Shown piece after piece: positions 425 to 8,675 of a stretch of 21,971 nucleotides of DNA. The notes beneath the pieces were generated by a model that was given only the letters and a program-made list of their open reading frames with translations, was not told where the DNA came from and did no database searches. How positions within the stretch are numbered: position 1 is the first letter of the stretch; each line of letters opens with the position of its first letter. Source of the stretch: a virus; the IMG/VR virus record IMGVR_UViG_3300006802_000663, positions 1 to 21,971 of that record; one strand, written 5' to 3'. Made by a program: the position numbers and the translations under genes.

Positions 425-2317
425 CTATGCGGCCTCCCCCCAACTTGGTCCTATCTCTATATCACACAAACTCGGCACTTCCAAGGGCACCGCCGACTTC
501 ATTATCTTGGCGATCTCCATCGCTTCGTCCATGTCCTGCACCGACATCGCGATCTCGTCGTGTATCTGGATCAGCGGAATTCGGCCTGTGGCGTAAATGT
601 CCACCATCGCCTTCTTCGTCATGTCGGCGGCGGACGCTTGGATCAGCCGGTTCAGCGCCTTGTAGGTGTAGGCGCGCTTGAGACGGGTGGTATCGCCGTA
701 CTCTTGAATCGCCTCTCGGTACGGCAGCGCCTTGTTCATGCCAAAGGAGGCTGGTTCCCACAGGTCGAAACGGCACTTACGCCCGAGGATCGAGCGGATC
801 GAGCCGCTGCTCGACTTGTCGTCAAGCCTGTTCATCACGCCGTTCATCAGGCCCTTAACGAAAGGAACGCGGTCGTGATACTGGCGGATCAAAGATTTTG
901 CCTCGTCCACGGAGATGTCTAGCTCGTCCGCCAGCTTGTTGACGCCCATGCCGTACATCATGCCGAGGTTAATCGTCTTGGCCTGCTTGCGGGCTATCTT
1001 TGCCATCTCGGCGACCATTGTATGGAAGTCTGTGCTGGGGTCCTCGTTGTAGCGCGACACAAACTCAGACGCGCCGGTCAATTCGACTCCTTTGCTCCGC
1101 CCATAGACGTGTGCGTAGTGCACGAGGATACGTGGCTCTTGCTGCGAGAAATCGATAGCCGCCCACTGCTGCTCTTCTTCCGGCAGGAAGAGCGAGCGGA
1201 TCATGGGTCCCAGCTCTGGATCGCGGGCCGGGATTTGTTGCAAATTCGGGTTGTTCATCGAAATACGGCCCGACACCGTGCCGCCGTCATCCGACCTGAT
1301 CTGGTTAATGTGCGCGTGGATACGGCCGTCGCTATGACAGTGCGACAGGATAGTCGAGATGAACGTGCCGCTGACCTTGTTGAGATTACGCGCTCTGGTT
1401 ATGAGGCGCGGAAGCTCGTGAGGATGGTCTGACAGGAACGCCTTTGTGAAGGACGGCGCGCCCTTCTCTGTCTTCGGGTAGTCGATACCGACCGCATCGA
1501 ACGCCTTCGACAGAGACTGGGCTGCCCATATCTCGATGTTGGCCCCGGTCAGTTCCTTGATCTGCTTCATCACAGCCTGCTCCTGTTTCAGGATGTGATT
1601 TCTGGTCCGTTCCGCGCGGTCCAAGTCCACTCGGACGCCGCGCCACGTCATGTCGATCAGGACGGGGAGCAGATCGAGTTCGAGATTGGCAATCGGCCAA
1701 AGCTCTTCCTTGCCGAGTTCCACGGAGAAATAGGACCAGAGTTCCAGCGCCAACTGGGCGTCGTTCTCTGCGTAGGGGCCGACGAACTGGGCCGGCATCT
1801 TCCACATTTCTGCTTTTGGATCGAGGCCGAATTCCCGAGCGGCCTCTATCAGGCCCTTCTCCGATTTAGTCTTGTTGAGATAGTCGTAGCTCAACGAGTT
1901 GAGGGAGTAGCTGAAACGGTTTTCGTCAAGAAGGGACGCGATGACCATCGTGTCGATGATGCGGCCGTTTAGGGTGAAACCCATTCGGCGTATCCAGCCG
2001 GCGTCGTACTGGGCGTTGTGCATGATCTTGTCGGCGGGACACTCGAAAACCCTTTTGAGCCACTTGCCAATCACGCGCTCGTCCACGTTTCCGCCGCCGA
2101 GATCACGCACAGGGACATAGCCGCGCCAATCTTCTGTAGCGATGGCGTAGCCCACCACCTCGCCGTTCCCCGTGGCCCAGCCGGGGCCACGCGTCTTGAT
2201 GTCGGGGTCTCTCGTTTCGACATCGATTGCGATGCGCTTCGCCTGCGTTAGGTCAGGATATTCAGCGTGGGGGACCCACTCGGATTTCGGCGGGAACATG
2301 GCCATTTGAAGGGTCAT
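425..2317 (-). CDS. Family A DNA polymerase with 3'-5' exonuclease domain
   Basis: A 630-residue replicative polymerase of the PolA/T7 gp5 type. The N-terminal proofreading exonuclease has DVET (Asp32, Glu34), a second motif HNAQYD (to Asp105) and YAENDA (Tyr182, Asp186), so it should be active. The polymerase domain carries motif A AAIDFSQQEPR (Asp389), motif B with Arg443, Lys447 and Tyr455, and motif C IHDE (His586-Asp587-Glu588). There is no 5'-nuclease domain, as is usual for phage enzymes of this size. The residue equivalent to E. coli Phe762 is Leu451. The start overlaps the upstream gene by ATGA. It is the last gene of the replication operon, just before a strong terminator. Confidence 0.97.
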   Translation of the reverse strand: MTLQMAMFPPKSEWVPHAEYPDLTQAKRIAIDVETRDPDIKTRGPGWATGNGEVVGYAIATEDWRGYVPVRDLGGGNVDERVIGKWLKRVFECPADKIMHNAQYDAGWIRRMGFTLNGRIIDTMVIASLLDENRFSYSLNSLSYDYLNKTKSEKGLIEAAREFGLDPKAEMWKMPAQFVGPYAENDAQLALELWSYFSVELGKEELWPIANLELDLLPVLIDMTWRGVRVDLDRAERTRNHILKQEQAVMKQIKELTGANIEIWAAQSLSKAFDAVGIDYPKTEKGAPSFTKAFLSDHPHELPRLITRARNLNKVSGTFISTILSHCHSDGRIHAHINQIRSDDGGTVSGRISMNNPNLQQIPARDPELGPMIRSLFLPEEEQQWAAIDFSQQEPRILVHYAHVYGRSKGVELTGASEFVSRYNEDPSTDFHTMVAEMAKIARKQAKTINLGMMYGMGVNKLADELDISVDEAKSLIRQYHDRVPFVKGLMNGVMNRLDDKSSSGSIRSILGRKCRFDLWEPASFGMNKALPYREAIQEYGDTTRLKRAYTYKALNRLIQASAADMTKKAMVDIYATGRIPLIQIHDEIAMSVQDMDEAMEIAKIMKSAVPLEVPSLCDIEIGPSWGEAA

Positions 2318-2571
2318 ACCAATTCCCCGCCGAGGGCTGAATAGCCGCAGATATCAATCCAAGAGTCGTCATGGTCAGGGCTCTTTGCGAGCCGCGCCAT
2401 CTTCACCCCGATCATACACAGAGCTACTTCTTTGGTGGTGACCGGTCTATTGAGGATGACGGACCAGATGTCGGCGATATCCATGAAATTTTTTTGGGCA
2501 TCACCGTAATCCTTGTTTCGGTCGTGGTTAATCAAACGACCCGCTTCCGACAAGAACTCATCTCTGGTCAT
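2314..2571 (-). CDS. DUF6378-like small phage protein
   Basis: An 85-residue, mostly helical protein overlapping the genes on both sides by ATGA, so translation of helicase, this gene and polymerase is probably coupled. Recognisable features are NKDYGDAQKNF near residue 20, IWSVILN, a KMARL segment and HDDSWIDICGY near the C-terminus. I associate this pattern with the DUF6378 family found in many tailed phages near replication genes. The acidic/His pattern faintly recalls all-alpha NTP pyrophosphohydrolases of the MazG type, but I cannot show a complete metal site. Biochemical function is unknown. Confidence 0.75.
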   Translation of the reverse strand: MTRDEFLSEAGRLINHDRNKDYGDAQKNFMDIADIWSVILNRPVTTKEVALCMIGVKMARLAKSPDHDDSWIDICGYSALGGELV

Positions 2572-4079
2572 ATGTTGTAGCTCCGGCTGTAATCTTCTGG
2601 TTCTACGAGGAACAGGTTTTCTTTTGTACGGGTTACCCCTACGTAGAAGACCCTGTGTAGATCATCCGCATCGACTTGTGCGGCAGCCTCGGCGGCAGGT
2701 GACAAATCGGTCAGTAGAACGACATTGTCAGCTTCGCCACCTTTTGATCCGTGGATCGTGGATATTGTGATACGGGGAGGAGCATTGAACTTTTCCCCTC
2801 GGCGCAGTAGCGCCACAATATAAGCTCGTTCTCGATCCGGCAACAAATCCATAGCGTCGTGCCAAATCATATCGCGATCTGCCAGAAGGCCGTGATGCGT
2901 GATCAGCGTTTCGAGATCGACGGCGGCGTCATCTTCGAGCGTGGTCAGTTTCTTGAAACCGCGTTGTATCCGGTCGCCTGTAGACATGAAGCTGTAGACG
3001 ATACGGGCTTCGGCCCCCGTAATTTTGTAGTCCTTCCGCAGGCGCTCCCATGCGTTGACCGCCGTGCTTATCTTCTCGGGAATGGACCGACGGCCGCGAT
3101 CATAGAACAGCAGACCGAGACCCCTTAGCTCTCCCGCAATCGAGTTGAGCATGTAACCGGCCTGCGCGAGGATCAGCCACGTGCCCTCGTGCATGTCAAT
3201 TTCCGACACCGTGGACACACGCTGGATGCGGCCCTTCTCGGGGCGCGGTCTATACTTCTTGGGATATCGGCGCACGATGCGCTTGGCGATGGTGTCCGCG
3301 ATCTCGTGCACGGCCCACGGCACGCGGTAGGACTGTTCGAGGACCTCGGCGCTACCTTCGAGATTGATGAAGTGGTCAACGTCTGCGCCGGCCCACCGGA
3401 AGATAGCTTGATCATCGTCACCAGCGGCGTACATCCGCTCAGAATGGGCGTCCAGTATGTGGGCGATGTCCCACTGTAGTGGGGACAGGTCCTGCGCCTC
3501 ATCGAGGAACGTCAGCTTGAACTTCGGGCAGACCTGCGCTTGCTGCTCTATGAAGACACTCAGCATGTCCGTGAAATCGTAAAGCCCGAACTTGTTCTTG
3601 TACTCGGTCAGGGCCTGAGAAACGAACTGGACGAGGTTCCAGTCCTCCCACAGGTTGCTGCTGTTGTACTGCTCGCGCAACTCCACTTTTCTCAGGCGCG
3701 CCAGACTGATGAGGCTCAGAATCGGATCGTTCATCTTCATGTTGAAGATATCGTCGTCCGCAGAGTCCGCTACGTTACGAAACGAGTATCCGATCACTGC
3801 CGCTAGGTCACGGTAGTGGTTTGCCTGCATGACCTGTTCTGTCCGGATGCCAGCACGAGCCAATGCCAGACTATGTATCGTCCGGAAGAAAGGCAGGTCC
3901 TTATCCGGGTCGAGGTTGAAGCGGGATGCTGCCCGCTCCTTTGCCTCGTTAGCTGCTTTCCGCGTGAAGGCAAGAAACGCTATGCTGTCTGGCCGGATGC
4001 CGCTCGCCAGAGCGTCATCCACCATATTAAGCAGCGTCGTTGTCTTCCCTGTTCCCGGTGGTCCGAATATTCGGAACAT
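2568..4079 (-). CDS. UvrD/Rep-like superfamily 1 DNA helicase
   Basis: A 503-residue ATP-dependent helicase. Visible motifs in order are Walker A GPPGTGKTTT (residues 6-15), Ia AFTRKAANEAKER (37-49), Walker B DEAQD (193-197), III GDDDQAIFRWAGAD (220-233), IV QSYRVP (249-254), V STIHGSKGGE (440-449) and VI FYVGVTRTKENL (478-489). It is shorter than UvrD (about 720 aa) and begins almost at the Walker A motif. That fixes the start at 4079, supported by AAAAGGA eight bases upstream. Its 5' end overlaps the small HTH gene by 53 bases in another frame. Within this primase-polymerase operon it is a candidate replicative or recombination helicase. Confidence 0.95.
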   Translation of the reverse strand: MFRIFGPPGTGKTTTLLNMVDDALASGIRPDSIAFLAFTRKAANEAKERAASRFNLDPDKDLPFFRTIHSLALARAGIRTEQVMQANHYRDLAAVIGYSFRNVADSADDDIFNMKMNDPILSLISLARLRKVELREQYNSSNLWEDWNLVQFVSQALTEYKNKFGLYDFTDMLSVFIEQQAQVCPKFKLTFLDEAQDLSPLQWDIAHILDAHSERMYAAGDDDQAIFRWAGADVDHFINLEGSAEVLEQSYRVPWAVHEIADTIAKRIVRRYPKKYRPRPEKGRIQRVSTVSEIDMHEGTWLILAQAGYMLNSIAGELRGLGLLFYDRGRRSIPEKISTAVNAWERLRKDYKITGAEARIVYSFMSTGDRIQRGFKKLTTLEDDAAVDLETLITHHGLLADRDMIWHDAMDLLPDRERAYIVALLRRGEKFNAPPRITISTIHGSKGGEADNVVLLTDLSPAAEAAAQVDADDLHRVFYVGVTRTKENLFLVEPEDYSRSYNI

Positions 4080-4206
4080 TCTGAGTCCTTTTCTTGCTAA
4101 CGATCTGGCGCACGCGCTCGCGCGTCAGCCCAAACCGCTTGCCAATGGCTGACAGGGTCATGAGTTCATTTTTCCAGAGATGAACGATCTCCTCGTCCCT
4201 ATTCAT
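4027..4206 (-). CDS. Stand-alone sigma-70 region-4-like HTH protein (59 aa)
   Basis: The ATG at 4206 overlaps the primase stop as TGATG, giving 59 residues that end inside the helicase gene. Residues 17-38 (TLSAIGKRFGLTRERVRQIVSK) closely resemble the helix-turn-helix of sigma-70 region 4.2, which contacts the -35 element: a TL.EIG..FG.TRERIRQI pattern. Regions 2 and 3 are absent, so it cannot be a complete sigma factor. The C-terminus (residues 45-59) is polar and probably disordered. Possible roles are a transcription modulator acting on promoters or host RNA polymerase, or a generic small HTH DNA-binding protein. Longer reading upstream of 4206 lies out of frame inside the primase and is not real. 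Confidence 0.75.
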   Translation of the reverse strand: MNRDEEIVHLWKNELMTLSAIGKRFGLTRERVRQIVSKKRTQNVPNIRTTGNREDNDAA

Positions 4207-5735
4207 CAGAAAGGAACCTCCTCGTCGTTGAAGTTTGGTCCATCGAACTCGATGTCGGCGAAGCCGTATGCCGGGATCGCCCAGACACGGATAGGCCGCC
4301 CCTTGATCTTCAGTAGGACGCTCTGACCGTTTATGTCGCGCAGGCGCTGGGCAATCTTGTGGCTCTTGAACTCGAAGAATTTGTTCTTCCGCAGATGCGC
4401 CTCGAAGTCGCGCAAGCGGAAGTAGGTGATCTTCTGCTCCTCGTCGGTCCAAGGCCGGCGGAGCAGAATCTCTTCCCTGTCTTGAGCCTGCTGTAGGTGA
4501 CGGCAGAACTCTTCGAGGTAATCGTAGAATTGACCGTTAATGCTGGCATCCTCGGCGACCTCTACGATAGCGCTTTCGTTGTCGCGCATCTCGGTCATCA
4601 GGGTGCCTATACGCGCTTCCCAGTTCTGCTTGCTCATTGTGCCGGGCATGAAGTTTAGCTGCTCCATGCAGGCGCGCTGGAAGGCCTTCTGTTCGATTAG
4701 AGCGTCTGTGTCGAGTTCGAGCGGCTCACCGTTCACGTCTATGAACCAGACGGGCGGTGCCGAGTTGTACTTCCGCAGATTGCCGACAAGGGCGTTCTGC
4801 GCGCCGCCCCCTACACCAAACTTTCGCGTGCGGCAGAGAACCTTATCGCAGTGGGCGTTGATCGGCGCATCGCTGCATTTATATGCGTAGTCCTTGCGGC
4901 CTAGCTGTTTGGCGATGATGTTGACTTCGCTGAGAGGAAGCGGTGGCTCAAGATACGTGAGGTTATACGTGAGGATTTCCGTTTCCCAGCTATCAGGGAA
5001 CGCCTTGCGGAGGTAGACGCCGATATTGAACAGGCCGTTGTTGCGGCCGCCCTCGCTGATCTTATTCGCGCAGATTATCTGTAGACACGGCGGCGCGCCT
5101 GTCCAAGACGACTGACTGTCGTCCGTGATCTGTAAGGCGAGAAGCGCCTCTGGTGTTAGGGCGTGAGCCTCGTACAGCGAGAAGAATTCATCGAGCGTCG
5201 CCGCCGTGCCGTCATCGTTGATGGCATAACGGAGGCCTTCCTCCGCATTGAAGTAAGGCAGGTTCAGGAAGTTTCCGACATCGCCACGGTCCAACCGCAG
5301 GGCGACCTGCTTGGGGAAAATCTCGCTGCCGCCATACCCCAGCGCCGCCGAAACCTGCTGTAAGGTCGTCTGCATATCCTTGGCCGATACCCGGCCACGG
5401 ATGAATACGAAACAATGCGCGCCGCCTGACTTCGAGCGACACACGATGATCGGCAGCTTCATGCGCCGAATCTTCTCGACAAGCAGCTTGTGATCGAGGG
5501 GATACTGGTCGATGTCGATGCAGCCCCACCGACATTCGTTATTCTCGTCAATAGGAATTATGCCAAGCGAGCGTTTGCCAGCGAGGTGTTCCTCCCAAGT
5601 GCGCGCGGTCCGTGGTTCACGGACGATACCGGCTCTTCCCGTATTTTTGCCATTCGCAGCAGTCTTCTCGATGACGAACGTGCCATGCGCGGCCTGAAGA
5701 CCGTCGAAAATGGCAGCAAATTTTTCTGCTGACAT
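4206..5735 (-). CDS. Archaeo-eukaryotic-type DNA primase (AEP/TOTE-like) with C-terminal extension
   Basis: A 509-residue protein. Its N-terminal half fits the AEP primase fold: catalytic CIDIDQYP (Asp74, Asp76), the SKSGGAHCF motif (101-109, His107), then SEIFPKQ (137-143) and GNFLNLPYF (154-162). This pattern is typical of phage and TOTE-system primases. Around residues 229-310 lies a primase C-terminal-like segment with a Cys/His cluster (Cys287, His295, Cys296, Cys301) and CRTRKFGVGG, possibly a zinc site. Residues 330-509 are unassigned and have no Walker A, so no helicase is fused. The last residues, DEEVPF, copy the acidic tip of bacterial SSB. The start codon follows a hairpin and a weak GGGG ribosome site. 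It likely primes synthesis for the polymerase in this operon. Confidence 0.88.
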   Translation of the reverse strand: MSAEKFAAIFDGLQAAHGTFVIEKTAANGKNTGRAGIVREPRTARTWEEHLAGKRSLGIIPIDENNECRWGCIDIDQYPLDHKLLVEKIRRMKLPIIVCRSKSGGAHCFVFIRGRVSAKDMQTTLQQVSAALGYGGSEIFPKQVALRLDRGDVGNFLNLPYFNAEEGLRYAINDDGTAATLDEFFSLYEAHALTPEALLALQITDDSQSSWTGAPPCLQIICANKISEGGRNNGLFNIGVYLRKAFPDSWETEILTYNLTYLEPPLPLSEVNIIAKQLGRKDYAYKCSDAPINAHCDKVLCRTRKFGVGGGAQNALVGNLRKYNSAPPVWFIDVNGEPLELDTDALIEQKAFQRACMEQLNFMPGTMSKQNWEARIGTLMTEMRDNESAIVEVAEDASINGQFYDYLEEFCRHLQQAQDREEILLRRPWTDEEQKITYFRLRDFEAHLRKNKFFEFKSHKIAQRLRDINGQSVLLKIKGRPIRVWAIPAYGFADIEFDGPNFNDEEVPF

Positions 5736-5752
5736 CTCAACCCCGAGAGAGT

Positions 5753-5774
5753 AGCGGGGGCTGTCGCCCCCGCT
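5753..5774 (-). other. GC-rich stem-loop between the SSB-like and primase genes
   Basis: Nine-base arms AGCGGGGGC (5753-5761) and GCCCCCGCT (5766-5774) flank a 4-base loop. It lies 6 bases after the stop of the SSB-like gene. On the minus strand no T-tract follows, so it is not a standard intrinsic terminator. It may reduce read-through, protect upstream mRNA or tune the primase level. Confidence 0.6.
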
Positions 5775-5780
5775 TTATGA

Positions 5781-6560
5781 TCAGAACGGCACGTCGTCGT
5801 TATTGACGGTACGAGTCTCGCTCTCGTGCTTTACGACGACATCGCCGGAAAGCACGCTCTCAGAGAACGCCTTCGCACGGAGGTAAACGGCCATGTCCTC
5901 GACCGGCCCTTCGCGCGACATCTCCCAGCCATGCCAAGAACCCTTCGAGTTCTCTTCGCTGGCAGACTTGACACGATACACGTGGCTGAAGCGCGGCGGC
6001 GTGAACGGGCCGTTCTTCCCCTGCATCGTCAACGACTGGATCATGGAGTTCCATTTTCGGCTCTTCTTTAGCTGCGTGGACTTCATCGCCATGAGCGCCG
6101 TCTCGACGGTGCCGTCATCGTTGAGGATCAGCACGAAATGCTGATGCGTCTCCTCAATGTACTCACCGCCGCCGCCGACAACGTATTCCTTGTTGTCATC
6201 CGGCGACCGCTGCGTCTTGGGGATATTATCCCCCGGCGCGTAGATAGCCGACGGCGCTCCACTTCCAGAGCCTCGGGGCGCCCACTGGATGAACCGACGC
6301 ATGTAGGCACACGGGATAACACGGACACCGTCCTTGCCCTTGTACACCGCACCGGACACGGTGTTGTAGATGTCGCCCTTACGCGCTTCCTCAAGCTCGT
6401 CAAGGATGGGGTCAAGCCCTGACAGAATTTTGAGGAACGGCAGGGCGAGGTCATCGACACCCATGTTCTGGTTGCCGGCACCAGCATCTGCCTCAAACAT
6501 CGACGCATCGAATACTGCGACAGCGTTCTCTTCCTTCTTCGCAACCTGTTGCGTAGCCAT
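5781..6560 (-). CDS. Putative phage ssDNA-binding protein with SSB-like acidic tail
   Basis: 259 residues from the ATG at 6560, chosen because AGAGGAG lies about 9 bases upstream and the next gene ends one base before; a longer in-frame reading would run through that gene. The N-terminus is acidic and flexible, followed by DDLALPFLKILSGLDP (36-51), a beta-rich core with GDIYNT, VRVIPC and FVLILNDDG (142-150), and an acidic linker ending NNDDVPF. The tip matches the conserved C-terminus of bacterial SSB (DDIPF), which recruits partner proteins. I cannot show an OB fold from sequence alone. The position beside primase and polymerase supports the role. An alternative is an uncharacterised replication accessory protein. 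Confidence 0.7.
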   Translation of the reverse strand: MATQQVAKKEENAVAVFDASMFEADAGAGNQNMGVDDLALPFLKILSGLDPILDELEEARKGDIYNTVSGAVYKGKDGVRVIPCAYMRRFIQWAPRGSGSGAPSAIYAPGDNIPKTQRSPDDNKEYVVGGGGEYIEETHQHFVLILNDDGTVETALMAMKSTQLKKSRKWNSMIQSLTMQGKNGPFTPPRFSHVYRVKSASEENSKGSWHGWEMSREGPVEDMAVYLRAKAFSESVLSGDVVVKHESETRTVNNDDVPF

Positions 6561-6561
6561 G

Positions 6562-7140
6562 TTACTTGCTCCTCTTGATAGTAGCGCGCTGTCCAACGAA
6601 TGCGCCGAAAAGTTCCATTGGGAATTCATCCCCATTCTCGCAGCGCTCTTTGACGAAAGCGCGTAGCGTTTGGGGGTGAATTTCTGTCTTTTGTTCGGGC
6701 AGGTAGCCCTGCTGCTCTGCGAACGACGCAAACGCGCTAGCTTGGTCATCCTCGCCGCGCCCGAACGAACACGTGACTGAGTTCTTGATGATATCGTCAT
6801 AGCCGTTCTCCCTTAGCCAATCGTAGGCCGCTGGCCTGTTATCGACCAAGATCGAAGCGCCGTATGTCGGTCGGACCTCTATCTGAGACCCGTCATCGAG
6901 AGCCAGCTTGGAGAGACCCATCTCGGAGAAGATGTTAGGAAGCTCCTCGTCTGTCAGCTTGAGCATCAGACGCTTTTCTTCCTTGAGCAGAGCCTCAAGC
7001 TCGGCTATCCTTATCTCCTTGTCCCGGATTTCTCTCGCCAAGCGAGCTACCGTAGTTAGCTCTCCTTGGTCGATCTTATCTACGGAAGAGGCGGCCGTAG
7101 CCTCAAAGTCCTCTTCCATCTGTGACAGAATGTCTGTCAT
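6562..7140 (-). CDS. Conserved phage protein with N-terminal coiled coil, first gene of the replication operon
   Basis: 192 residues; GAAGGAG lies six bases upstream of the ATG. Residues 25-65 form a charged heptad-rich coiled coil (REIRDKEIRIAELEALLKEE). The C-terminal part is globular, with YDWLRENGYDDIIKN (106-120), FGRGED (126-131) and IHPQTLRAFVKER (154-166). This arrangement is familiar from phage early regions, but I cannot assign a function. It is first in the leftward transcript and one base upstream of the ssDNA-binding candidate, so the two are likely made together and may interact. Confidence 0.85.
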   Translation of the reverse strand: MTDILSQMEEDFEATAASSVDKIDQGELTTVARLAREIRDKEIRIAELEALLKEEKRLMLKLTDEELPNIFSEMGLSKLALDDGSQIEVRPTYGASILVDNRPAAYDWLRENGYDDIIKNSVTCSFGRGEDDQASAFASFAEQQGYLPEQKTEIHPQTLRAFVKERCENGDEFPMELFGAFVGQRATIKRSK

Positions 7141-7232: not shown

Positions 7233-8675
7233 ATGTACGAATTCGAGACGAAGCCGTTCCAGCACCAAGAGGACGTGTTCCGTGGTTCGTGGTCCGCGCC
7301 GTTCTATGCACTGTTCATGGAGATGGGGACCGGCAAGTCCAAGGTGGCCATCGATACCATCGCCGCGCTCTACGAGGACGGGAAAATCAACGCCGCTCTT
7401 ATCGTCGCGCCAAAAGGCGTCTACGACAACTGGGTGCGCGGTGAAATTCCAATTCACATGCCGAAGCGCATCGAGAGGCTCGTGGTCCGTTGGACGCCGG
7501 CCAAGACCAAGAAATTCGAGGAGGAGATTGCAGGGCTCATGGACCACGGTCCACGGCACTTGCGCCTGTTCGTCATGAACATCGAAGCGCTGTCCACGCC
7601 TCGTGGTACGGCTGCCGCGCTAAATTTTCTCAAGCGTTATCCCGATAACATCATGGTGGTGGACGAGAGCACGACAATCAAGAGCCGCACCGCGACGCGG
7701 ACGCGTAATGTTGTGGCGCTAGCGGCGTACACCAAATATCGCCGCATCCTGACCGGATCGCCGATTACGAAGAGCCCCCTCGATCTTTACAGTCAATGTC
7801 TGTTCCTCGAACCGAAAGCCCTTGGCTACAATTCGTACTTCGCCTTCCAGAACAGGTATGCCGTAGTACAGCGCCGTGCGATGGGGCACCGGTCGTTCCA
7901 AGAGGTCGTAGGTTACCGCCGGCTGGACGAGTTGTCGGAGAAGCTCGACAAGTTCAGCAGTCGCGTTCTGAAGGAGGATTGTCTCGATCTTCCGGAGAAG
8001 CTCTACATACGGCGCGATGTGCCACTGACCGACGAGCAGAAATCTCTGTACCTACAGATGAAGAAACTGGCGCTGGCCATGTTCGACAACGGCGAACTGG
8101 CGACAACGGCTAGCGTTTTAACGCAGATCATGCGGCTTCAGCAGATTTGTTGCGGGTTCCTGACGCCAGACGATGGCGTTACGCAGGAGATACCCAACAA
8201 CAGACTGAGCGAATTGCTTGATATCTGCGACGAGCTTCAGGGCAAAGCTATCATCTGGGCGACGTGGACACACGACATCCAGAAGGTTGCCGAGGCCCTG
8301 CGCGACCGCTTCGGGCCCGAGGCGGTCGCAACCTATTACGGTGATACGCCACAAGATGATCGTCAGATCACCGTCGAGCGGTTCCAAGATAAGGATAGCC
8401 CGCTGCGGTTTTTTGTGGGTCAGCCGCGCACCGGCGGATACGGCATTACGTTAACAGCCGCAAACACAGTGATCTACTATTCTAACAGCTACGATCTGGA
8501 GATACGGTTACAGTCCGAGGACCGCGCACATCGTATCGGTCAGCGGAACGCCGTGACCTACATAGACCTGATATCGCCCGATACGGTCGATGAAAAGATC
8601 ATCGGCGCACTACGCAACAAGATCGACCTCGCCGGCCAAGTCCTCGGTGAGAATGCCAAGCAGTGGCTTATCTGA
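7233..8675 (+). CDS. SNF2-family (SF2) DNA helicase/translocase
   Basis: 480 residues and the only rightward gene in the window. The Swi2/Snf2 core is complete: FQHQ (9-12), motif I MGTGKSK (31-37), Walker B VVDEST (142-147), III LTGSP (173-177), then the second RecA lobe with IIWATW (340-345), V GGYGITLTAA (401-410) and VI QSEDRAHRIGQ (427-437). It is a minimal phage-type enzyme without accessory chromatin domains. Such ATPases translocate on duplex DNA and occur in many phages near replication genes, with roles in replication, recombination or protein displacement. AGGA nine bases upstream supports the ATG. The 3' end overlaps the last virion gene tail-to-tail by eight bases. Confidence 0.95.
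   Translation: MYEFETKPFQHQEDVFRGSWSAPFYALFMEMGTGKSKVAIDTIAALYEDGKINAALIVAPKGVYDNWVRGEIPIHMPKRIERLVVRWTPAKTKKFEEEIAGLMDHGPRHLRLFVMNIEALSTPRGTAAALNFLKRYPDNIMVVDESTTIKSRTATRTRNVVALAAYTKYRRILTGSPITKSPLDLYSQCLFLEPKALGYNSYFAFQNRYAVVQRRAMGHRSFQEVVGYRRLDELSEKLDKFSSRVLKEDCLDLPEKLYIRRDVPLTDEQKSLYLQMKKLALAMFDNGELATTASVLTQIMRLQQICCGFLTPDDGVTQEIPNNRLSELLDICDELQGKAIIWATWTHDIQKVAEALRDRFGPEAVATYYGDTPQDDRQITVERFQDKDSPLRFFVGQPRTGGYGITLTAANTVIYYSNSYDLEIRLQSEDRAHRIGQRNAVTYIDLISPDTVDEKIIGALRNKIDLAGQVLGENAKQWLI

Follow-up and report, generated by a model that had tools for sequence, protein, structure and literature searches.

When the bacteriophage T7 sequences were read directly, gp4, which joins a TOPRIM primase to a ring helicase, was found to end DTDF and the single-stranded DNA (ssDNA)-binding protein (SSB) gp2.5 to end DGDF, the SSB and the primase-bearing protein of this one phage sharing near-identical acidic, Phe-terminated tails. 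Basic patches on the T7 polymerase are the binding sites of the acidic gp4 tails, whose deletion cuts processivity (PMC12593628), the gp2.5 tail has been implicated in contacts with both the polymerase and the primase-helicase (PMC5686142), and its C-terminal Phe is reported to be essential for strand displacement synthesis (Ghosh et al. 2009, as cited in PMC9917605). Bacterial SSB ends MDFDDDIPF, and in E. coli the SSB tips recruit at least 17 proteins and also transiently touch the DNA-binding domain of SSB itself (PMC7145534). Here, a 21,971-nucleotide stretch from an uncultured virus (IMG/VR record IMGVR_UViG_3300006802_000663, positions 1 to 21,971; referred to in full as the window) was examined, in which an AEP-TOTE-type primase and a neighbouring protein of the Pam3 gp34 family end DEEVPF and NNDDVPF, respectively. 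This shared tip is a variant of the acidic tails of phage replisomes, and is real, conserved and specific. In the open-access literature, no paper was found that describes a phage primase mimicking the SSB tip.

Translation of both open reading frames (ORFs) confirmed the positions and the end peptides recorded in a first-pass annotation of the window. The features that concern the two tips are:

4206..5735, minus strand: AEP-TOTE-type primase, 509 amino acids (aa), ending ...GPNFNDEEVPF (translation, profiles and invariant residues)
4209..4271, minus strand: primase C-terminal tail, residues 489-509, predicted to be unstructured (structure model; mostly drifting columns in 87 relatives)
4209..4226, minus strand: primase tip codons, DEEVPF (sequence)
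5781..6560, minus strand: Pam3-gp34-family protein, 259 aa, ending ...RTVNNDDVPF, predicted to be an ssDNA-binding protein of the oligonucleotide/oligosaccharide-binding (OB) type (PF23977; model)
5784..5840, minus strand: C-terminal tail of the gp34-like protein, residues 241-259, predicted to be disordered (predicted local distance difference test, pLDDT, ~50-65)
5784..5804, minus strand: tip codons of the gp34-like protein, NNDDVPF (sequence)

The pairing of the two tips persists across hundreds of relatives. A total of 508 loci with both C-termini intact were gathered, and a window clade of 87 rows was drawn from primases at least 60% identical to that of the window and less than 95% identical to one another. 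In this clade, the PF end is kept in 83 of 87 primases and 78 of 87 gp34-like proteins, and every one of the 87 sequences of each protein closes with an aromatic residue. The linkers drift, which is the pattern that the first-pass annotation had proposed to look for. In the gp34-like protein, linker columns are 0-52% conserved (N 14%, V 28%, T 24%, R 24%) against 90% for the Pro and 98% for the Phe of the tip, and the primase linker (D 27%, N 27%, D 28%) is among the least conserved columns, against 96% and 98% for its terminal Pro and Phe. The tips draw on the full set of four Pro codons and two Phe codons, and selection therefore acts on the peptide. In loci with a PF/PF pair, only 17 of 9,696 other ORFs of at least 60 aa end in PF, which in three cases is immediately preceded by an acidic residue, and a P[FYW] end was found in none of the 728 other ORFs of at least 250 aa in 224 loci. 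A chance origin of the tips is ruled out by their conservation and by this near-absence elsewhere; among long ORFs, they are specific to the two proteins.

On the evidence of the sequences and models, both tips fit a motif of the SSB-tip type, in which one or more acidic residues are followed by hydrophobic-Pro-Phe on a free, disordered C-terminus. However, the family consensus is -D[D/S/G][I/V/T]PF in the gp34-like protein and the less acidic -E[A/S/V]PF in the primase, so that the initial description of the ends as SSB-like was overstated for the primase.

Outside the window clade the peptide changes, and a phage often has the new type on its primase and its gp34-like protein alike. The primase/gp34 pairs include NIV/DIV (HTVC027P group), DII/SII (locus L429), KDIM/EDIM (L539), RVEM/EVEM (L541), KPNY/SGNY (L546), KENY/SSNY (L487), EAPY/KQPY (L411), PDL/PEL (L239) and AEF/SEF (Kokobel2), and in the L162 pair, PPPFV/DIPFA, one extra residue is present on both proteins. 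The two proteins have the same terminal residue in 56 of 72 representatives, against 44.0 +/- 1.8 on random re-pairing (0 of 5000 re-pairings as high), a comparison that ignores ancestry. When the gp34 end was simulated along the primase tree, 36.3 class matches were expected and 54 of 82 were seen (p=0.006); with both ends simulated on the tree, the class-match p value was 0.05. Matches other than Phe numbered 14 against 2.8 simulated, a figure reached in 0 of 2000 simulations of the gp34 end and giving p=0.025 when both ends were simulated. These results support the view that tip types switch together on deep branches, with moderate phylogenetic support.

Several observations weigh against such coupling. 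In a comparison of 26 independent sister pairs whose primases end in different residues, the phage's own pair matched better in 6, worse in 4 and equally well in 16 (p=0.75), and sister pairs contrasting aromatic with aliphatic ends split 4:1, which is not significant. At shallow depth, then, F and Y seem able to replace each other, and the case for covariation depends on a modest number of switches deep in the tree. An acidic residue with a hydrophobic end is by itself common, occurring in 38% of long ORFs under a loose definition. There are also phages with only one tip: Nanhaivirus primases end GEA or GQD beside gp34-like proteins ending E[I/V]PF, the HTVC023P primase ends FRT while its gp34-like protein keeps a PF tip, L527 and L529 combine primase ends GL and ML with APF on gp34, and L564 has an aliphatic primase end with PF on gp34. 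As these exceptions keep the PF of gp34 and lose that of the primase, the primase tip is the more dispensable. In the 023Pt_psg01 group, primases ending E[N/H/D]F are paired with gp34-like proteins ending TPY. The primase tail of one member, L161, reads ...KTPYQIENF, with an internal TPY like that at the gp34 end followed by extra residues, and is perhaps a displaced tip.

The primase assignment made in the first-pass annotation was upheld by a match to PF22548 (AEP-TOTE; E=3.9e-13, 50 bits against a cut-off of 27) and to PHROG 21866, 'primase' (E=2.9e-97). The residues of the catalytic DxD and S...H motifs (D74, D76, S103 and H107) are invariant in 65 relatives, and the nearest solved relatives by sequence profile are the primase-polymerase chains 7nqf and 7nqd (E=1.6e-14). 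The model of the protein has a pLDDT of 85.3, with the last ~21 residues at 56-58 and lacking secondary structure. The C-terminus is thus predicted to be exposed, as is that of the gp34-like protein, rather than buried in a domain. With the tips also conserved in orthologues, neither of the two outcomes named in the first-pass annotation as refuting its idea was observed.

The product of 5781-6560 belongs to PF23977, Pam3_Gp34 (phrog_2402), which it matched with E=4.8e-62 (210 bits against a cut-off of 27, profile positions 11-234 of 235). It matches 503 of 50,697 phage records, including Pbunavirus and Wifcevirus, though, unlike the window, many members of the family are found where no AEP-TOTE primase is encoded, with the ends EEF, DNF, PVF or APF. 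The family has no annotated function, and 'putative ssDNA-binding' was originally a guess; an OB-type fold is, however, supported by the predicted structure. The AlphaFold2 model (pLDDT 88.8, predicted template modelling score 0.81) is mostly beta in its body and of low confidence in the tail, which starts near residue 241. No Foldseek match was obtained at E<=0.001 and a sequence search for solved relatives found none. In the VIA-align ranking, the PhiC31 recombination directionality factor (RDF; Z 8.4), a BRCA2 OB domain (6.4), RB69 gp32 (6.3) and gp32-Dda (5.3) were followed further down by RPA and bacterial SSBs, so that most rows are OB-fold nucleic-acid binders, with middling Z scores of 8.4 at most. 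PF00436, the SSB domain, was not among the Pfam matches of the gp34-like protein up to E=1 and was not found in 17 related complete or named phage records, and the gp34-like protein is therefore a plausible SSB in phages like that of the window. Enc34 ORF6 and the DUF2815 T7-type SSBs, phage OB-fold ssDNA-binding proteins with an acidic C-terminal tail (PMC5686142), resemble what is predicted for the gp34-like protein, but no sequence match to them was found and its Pfam family is a different one.

The top structural match, chain I of 9teh, aligned over 147 residues with a root-mean-square deviation of 4.3 and 8% identity. As this entry is an integrase-RDF fusion, the part matched is uncertain, and a common fold is not proof of a common function. 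The chain nevertheless outranks RB69 gp32, and a kinship between Pam3-gp34-like proteins and PhiC31-type RDFs is possible. In MW202510.1, the gp34-like ORF (L162:9098-9880) is on the plus strand, whereas the features annotated there are a pair of overlapping ORFs that read the other way, likely a mis-annotation.

As in T7, a family A polymerase is encoded in the window together with the phage's own SSB, which in this case is a candidate. No homology to the T7 proteins was detected, as the primase is of the AEP-TOTE/PriCT type rather than a TOPRIM-ring helicase and the SSB candidate is of the Pam3 gp34 family, and the window-type tip is usually x-P-F, nearer to that of bacterial SSB. By analogy, the window system may work as the T7 tails do. 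The earlier remark that such a tip is unusual on a primase needs qualifying, since the acidic, Phe-terminated tail of T7 gp4 matches that of gp2.5. The likeness to bacterial SSB covers the acidic residues, the hydrophobic-Pro-Phe-COOH end, the predicted disorder of the tail and the OB-type fold predicted for the gp34-like protein; the differences are the tip on the primase, the lack of PF00436 and the PY, IV, II, IM, EM or DL ends on both proteins of some phages.

The minus-strand replication module of the window comprises genes for the gp33-like and gp34-like proteins, the AEP-TOTE primase, a helix-turn-helix (HTH) protein, UvrD, a DUF6378 protein and a family A polymerase. The remaining features considered are:

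6562..7140, minus strand: Pam3 gp33-like protein (DUF7307), upstream neighbour of the gp34-like gene, lacking the tip and ending ...IKRSK (profile, translation)
4217..4222, minus strand: AGGAGG, Shine-Dalgarno-like, within the E-E-V tip codons of the primase, 10 nucleotides ahead of the ATG of the next ORF
4027..4206, minus strand: small sigma-70 region-4-like HTH protein, its ATG overlapping the primase stop codon in TGATG (sequence, profile)
2568..4079, minus strand: UvrD-type helicase, a candidate receptor lacking a tip of its own (ORF, profile)
425..2317, minus strand: family A DNA polymerase with 3'-5' exonuclease, the leading candidate receptor (profile)
7233-8675, divergent from the module: SNF2-type helicase (ORF, profile)

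With regard to a TOTE conflict system, UvrD- and SNF2-type helicases lie close to the primase, but the layout resembles that of a replication module of a phage. The polymerase, UvrD and SNF2 are the other large replication enzymes, and as none of them has such a tip they are candidate receptors, not carriers. Presence or absence was uninformative for choosing a receptor, as PF00476 (family A polymerase) was found in all 12 named phages with an AEP-TOTE primase.

A common partner for the two tips, proposed in the first-pass annotation as either phage or host, is the most economical interpretation, given the tendency of the two tips to change type jointly on deep branches, and it is probable that they share a receptor. 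Each of the two proteins would carry the same short linear motif for docking, an acidic, disordered linker whose chain end is hydrophobic and usually aromatic, and both tips would dock in the same type of pocket on a replisome partner that is most likely phage-encoded, the family A polymerase being the first candidate and the UvrD-type helicase the second. The gp34-like protein, coating exposed ssDNA and offering many tips, would concentrate the partner there, and the primase, offering a single tip, would allow priming and synthesis to be handed over at the same socket, for which the two tips may compete, as the first-pass annotation suggested. We give about even chances to this proposal as a whole, a T7-like tether with a shared tail on an archaeo-eukaryotic-type primase.

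The matched tips could be explained without a third protein if the gp34-like protein were itself the receptor, its own tail folding back on the OB DNA-binding cleft and the primase tail copying it, so that the primase is brought to coated ssDNA. The self-contact of E. coli SSB tips described above is a precedent, as are the T7 gp2.5 tail, which contends with ssDNA for a common surface (Marintcheva 2008, as cited in PMC5686142), and the Enc34 tails, which insert into the groove of a neighbouring molecule (PMC5686142). However, gp34 tails with a terminal aromatic residue are also present in LMA2, Mansfield and XcP1, phages that do not have this primase, indicating that the tail is useful alone, although self-inhibition would fit this too, and we regard the gp34-like protein as an unlikely receptor. 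It is also rather improbable that the two acidic tails are conserved separately for different partners and match only through joint inheritance in related phages. The null sister-pair tests and the p values of only 0.05 and 0.025 with both tails simulated are in keeping with such separate histories, but these do not account for several unrelated tip types each occurring in both proteins of one phage, nor for the 14 non-Phe matches where 2.8 were expected.

Mimicry of host SSB, with both tips docking on readers of the SSB tip (RecO, PriA, ExoI, chi, DnaG) and drawing repair and replication factors to phage DNA, would suit the window clade, where DDVPF and EEVPF are near DDDIPF and would fit such pockets, and the wide recruitment by the E. 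coli tip adds to its appeal. Yet in three SAR11 assemblies the SSBs terminate in DDDIPF or DDEIPF, whereas the pairs on the phage contigs of the same assemblies terminate in PY/PY or AF/PY. Another SAR11 assembly, in which no SSB was found, holds an II/II pair, and the pelagiphage HTVC027P carries IV/IV. In Lokivirus-like phages, the SSB-type tip (DDDLPF or DDDIPF) is on a separate small protein and is distinct from the EF, EY or EM ends of the primase and gp34. These mismatches speak for a receptor distinct from the SSB-tip pockets of the host, so that the host half of the original suggestion has fared poorly; host mimicry appears quite improbable, and the receptor is more likely phage-encoded. 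That the primase tip is partly a by-product at the RNA level, its E-E-V codons holding the AGGAGG of the next, overlapping gene while gp34 has an ordinary acidic SSB tail, is suggested by the AGGAGG at 4217-4222, by the TGATG overlap and by tip Glu codons that are GAG in 71 of 73 cases, against 1525 GAG to 1738 GAA (about 47% GAG) in the primase bodies. However, PF lies downstream of the Shine-Dalgarno sequence, is fixed at the amino-acid level and is kept in 33 of 33 relatives without a nearby downstream ATG, and the IV/IV, DIM/DIM and VEM/VEM pairs are left unexplained. As a cause of PF this explanation is largely refuted and highly improbable; the Shine-Dalgarno sequence adds a nucleotide-level constraint on the tip Glu codons, which alone may be doubly constrained. 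The stop/start overlap and the AGGAGG in the last primase codons together make 4204-4226 a junction under dual constraint.

A further possibility, held only tentatively, is that the shared tip is a docking code private to the phage, read by a phage-encoded receptor with which it has drifted from the bacterial SSB code (PF to PY, IV, II, IM, EM and DL), and that it arose independently of T7 on non-homologous proteins. If so, the code would insulate the phage replisome from the host's SSB-interacting proteins, and the shared primase/SSB tip would be a second, apparently independent instance of the T7 arrangement. The natural variants (PF, PY, IV, IM and EM) could serve as tools for finding the receptor and for probing a phage code separate from that of the host. 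As the genomes of hundreds of phages, among them many Pseudomonas Pbunaviruses, encode Pam3-gp34-like proteins, a model and tail that point to an ssDNA-binding replisome protein are of wider relevance.

Small proteins ending DDD[I/L]PF were also seen beside gp34-like proteins without a PF tip (L173:30130-30429, L159:19099-19440, L156:29926-30252, L168:8942-9268 and L169:8882-9358), the carriers including Lokivirus-like phages, ZP6 and JSF9. A PF00436 search found no SSB in the records of L173, L159, L156 and L168, JSF9 (L169) being outside that search. Some of these proteins are annotated as ssDNA- or DNA-binding, and that of JSF9 as an SSB. No third tip-bearing protein recurs in the loci examined. 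In DSL-LC04, a 65-aa ORF (L155:26165-26362, plus strand, around the annotated WJZ48098.1) ends EFEPAPF and is a possible third carrier of the tip.

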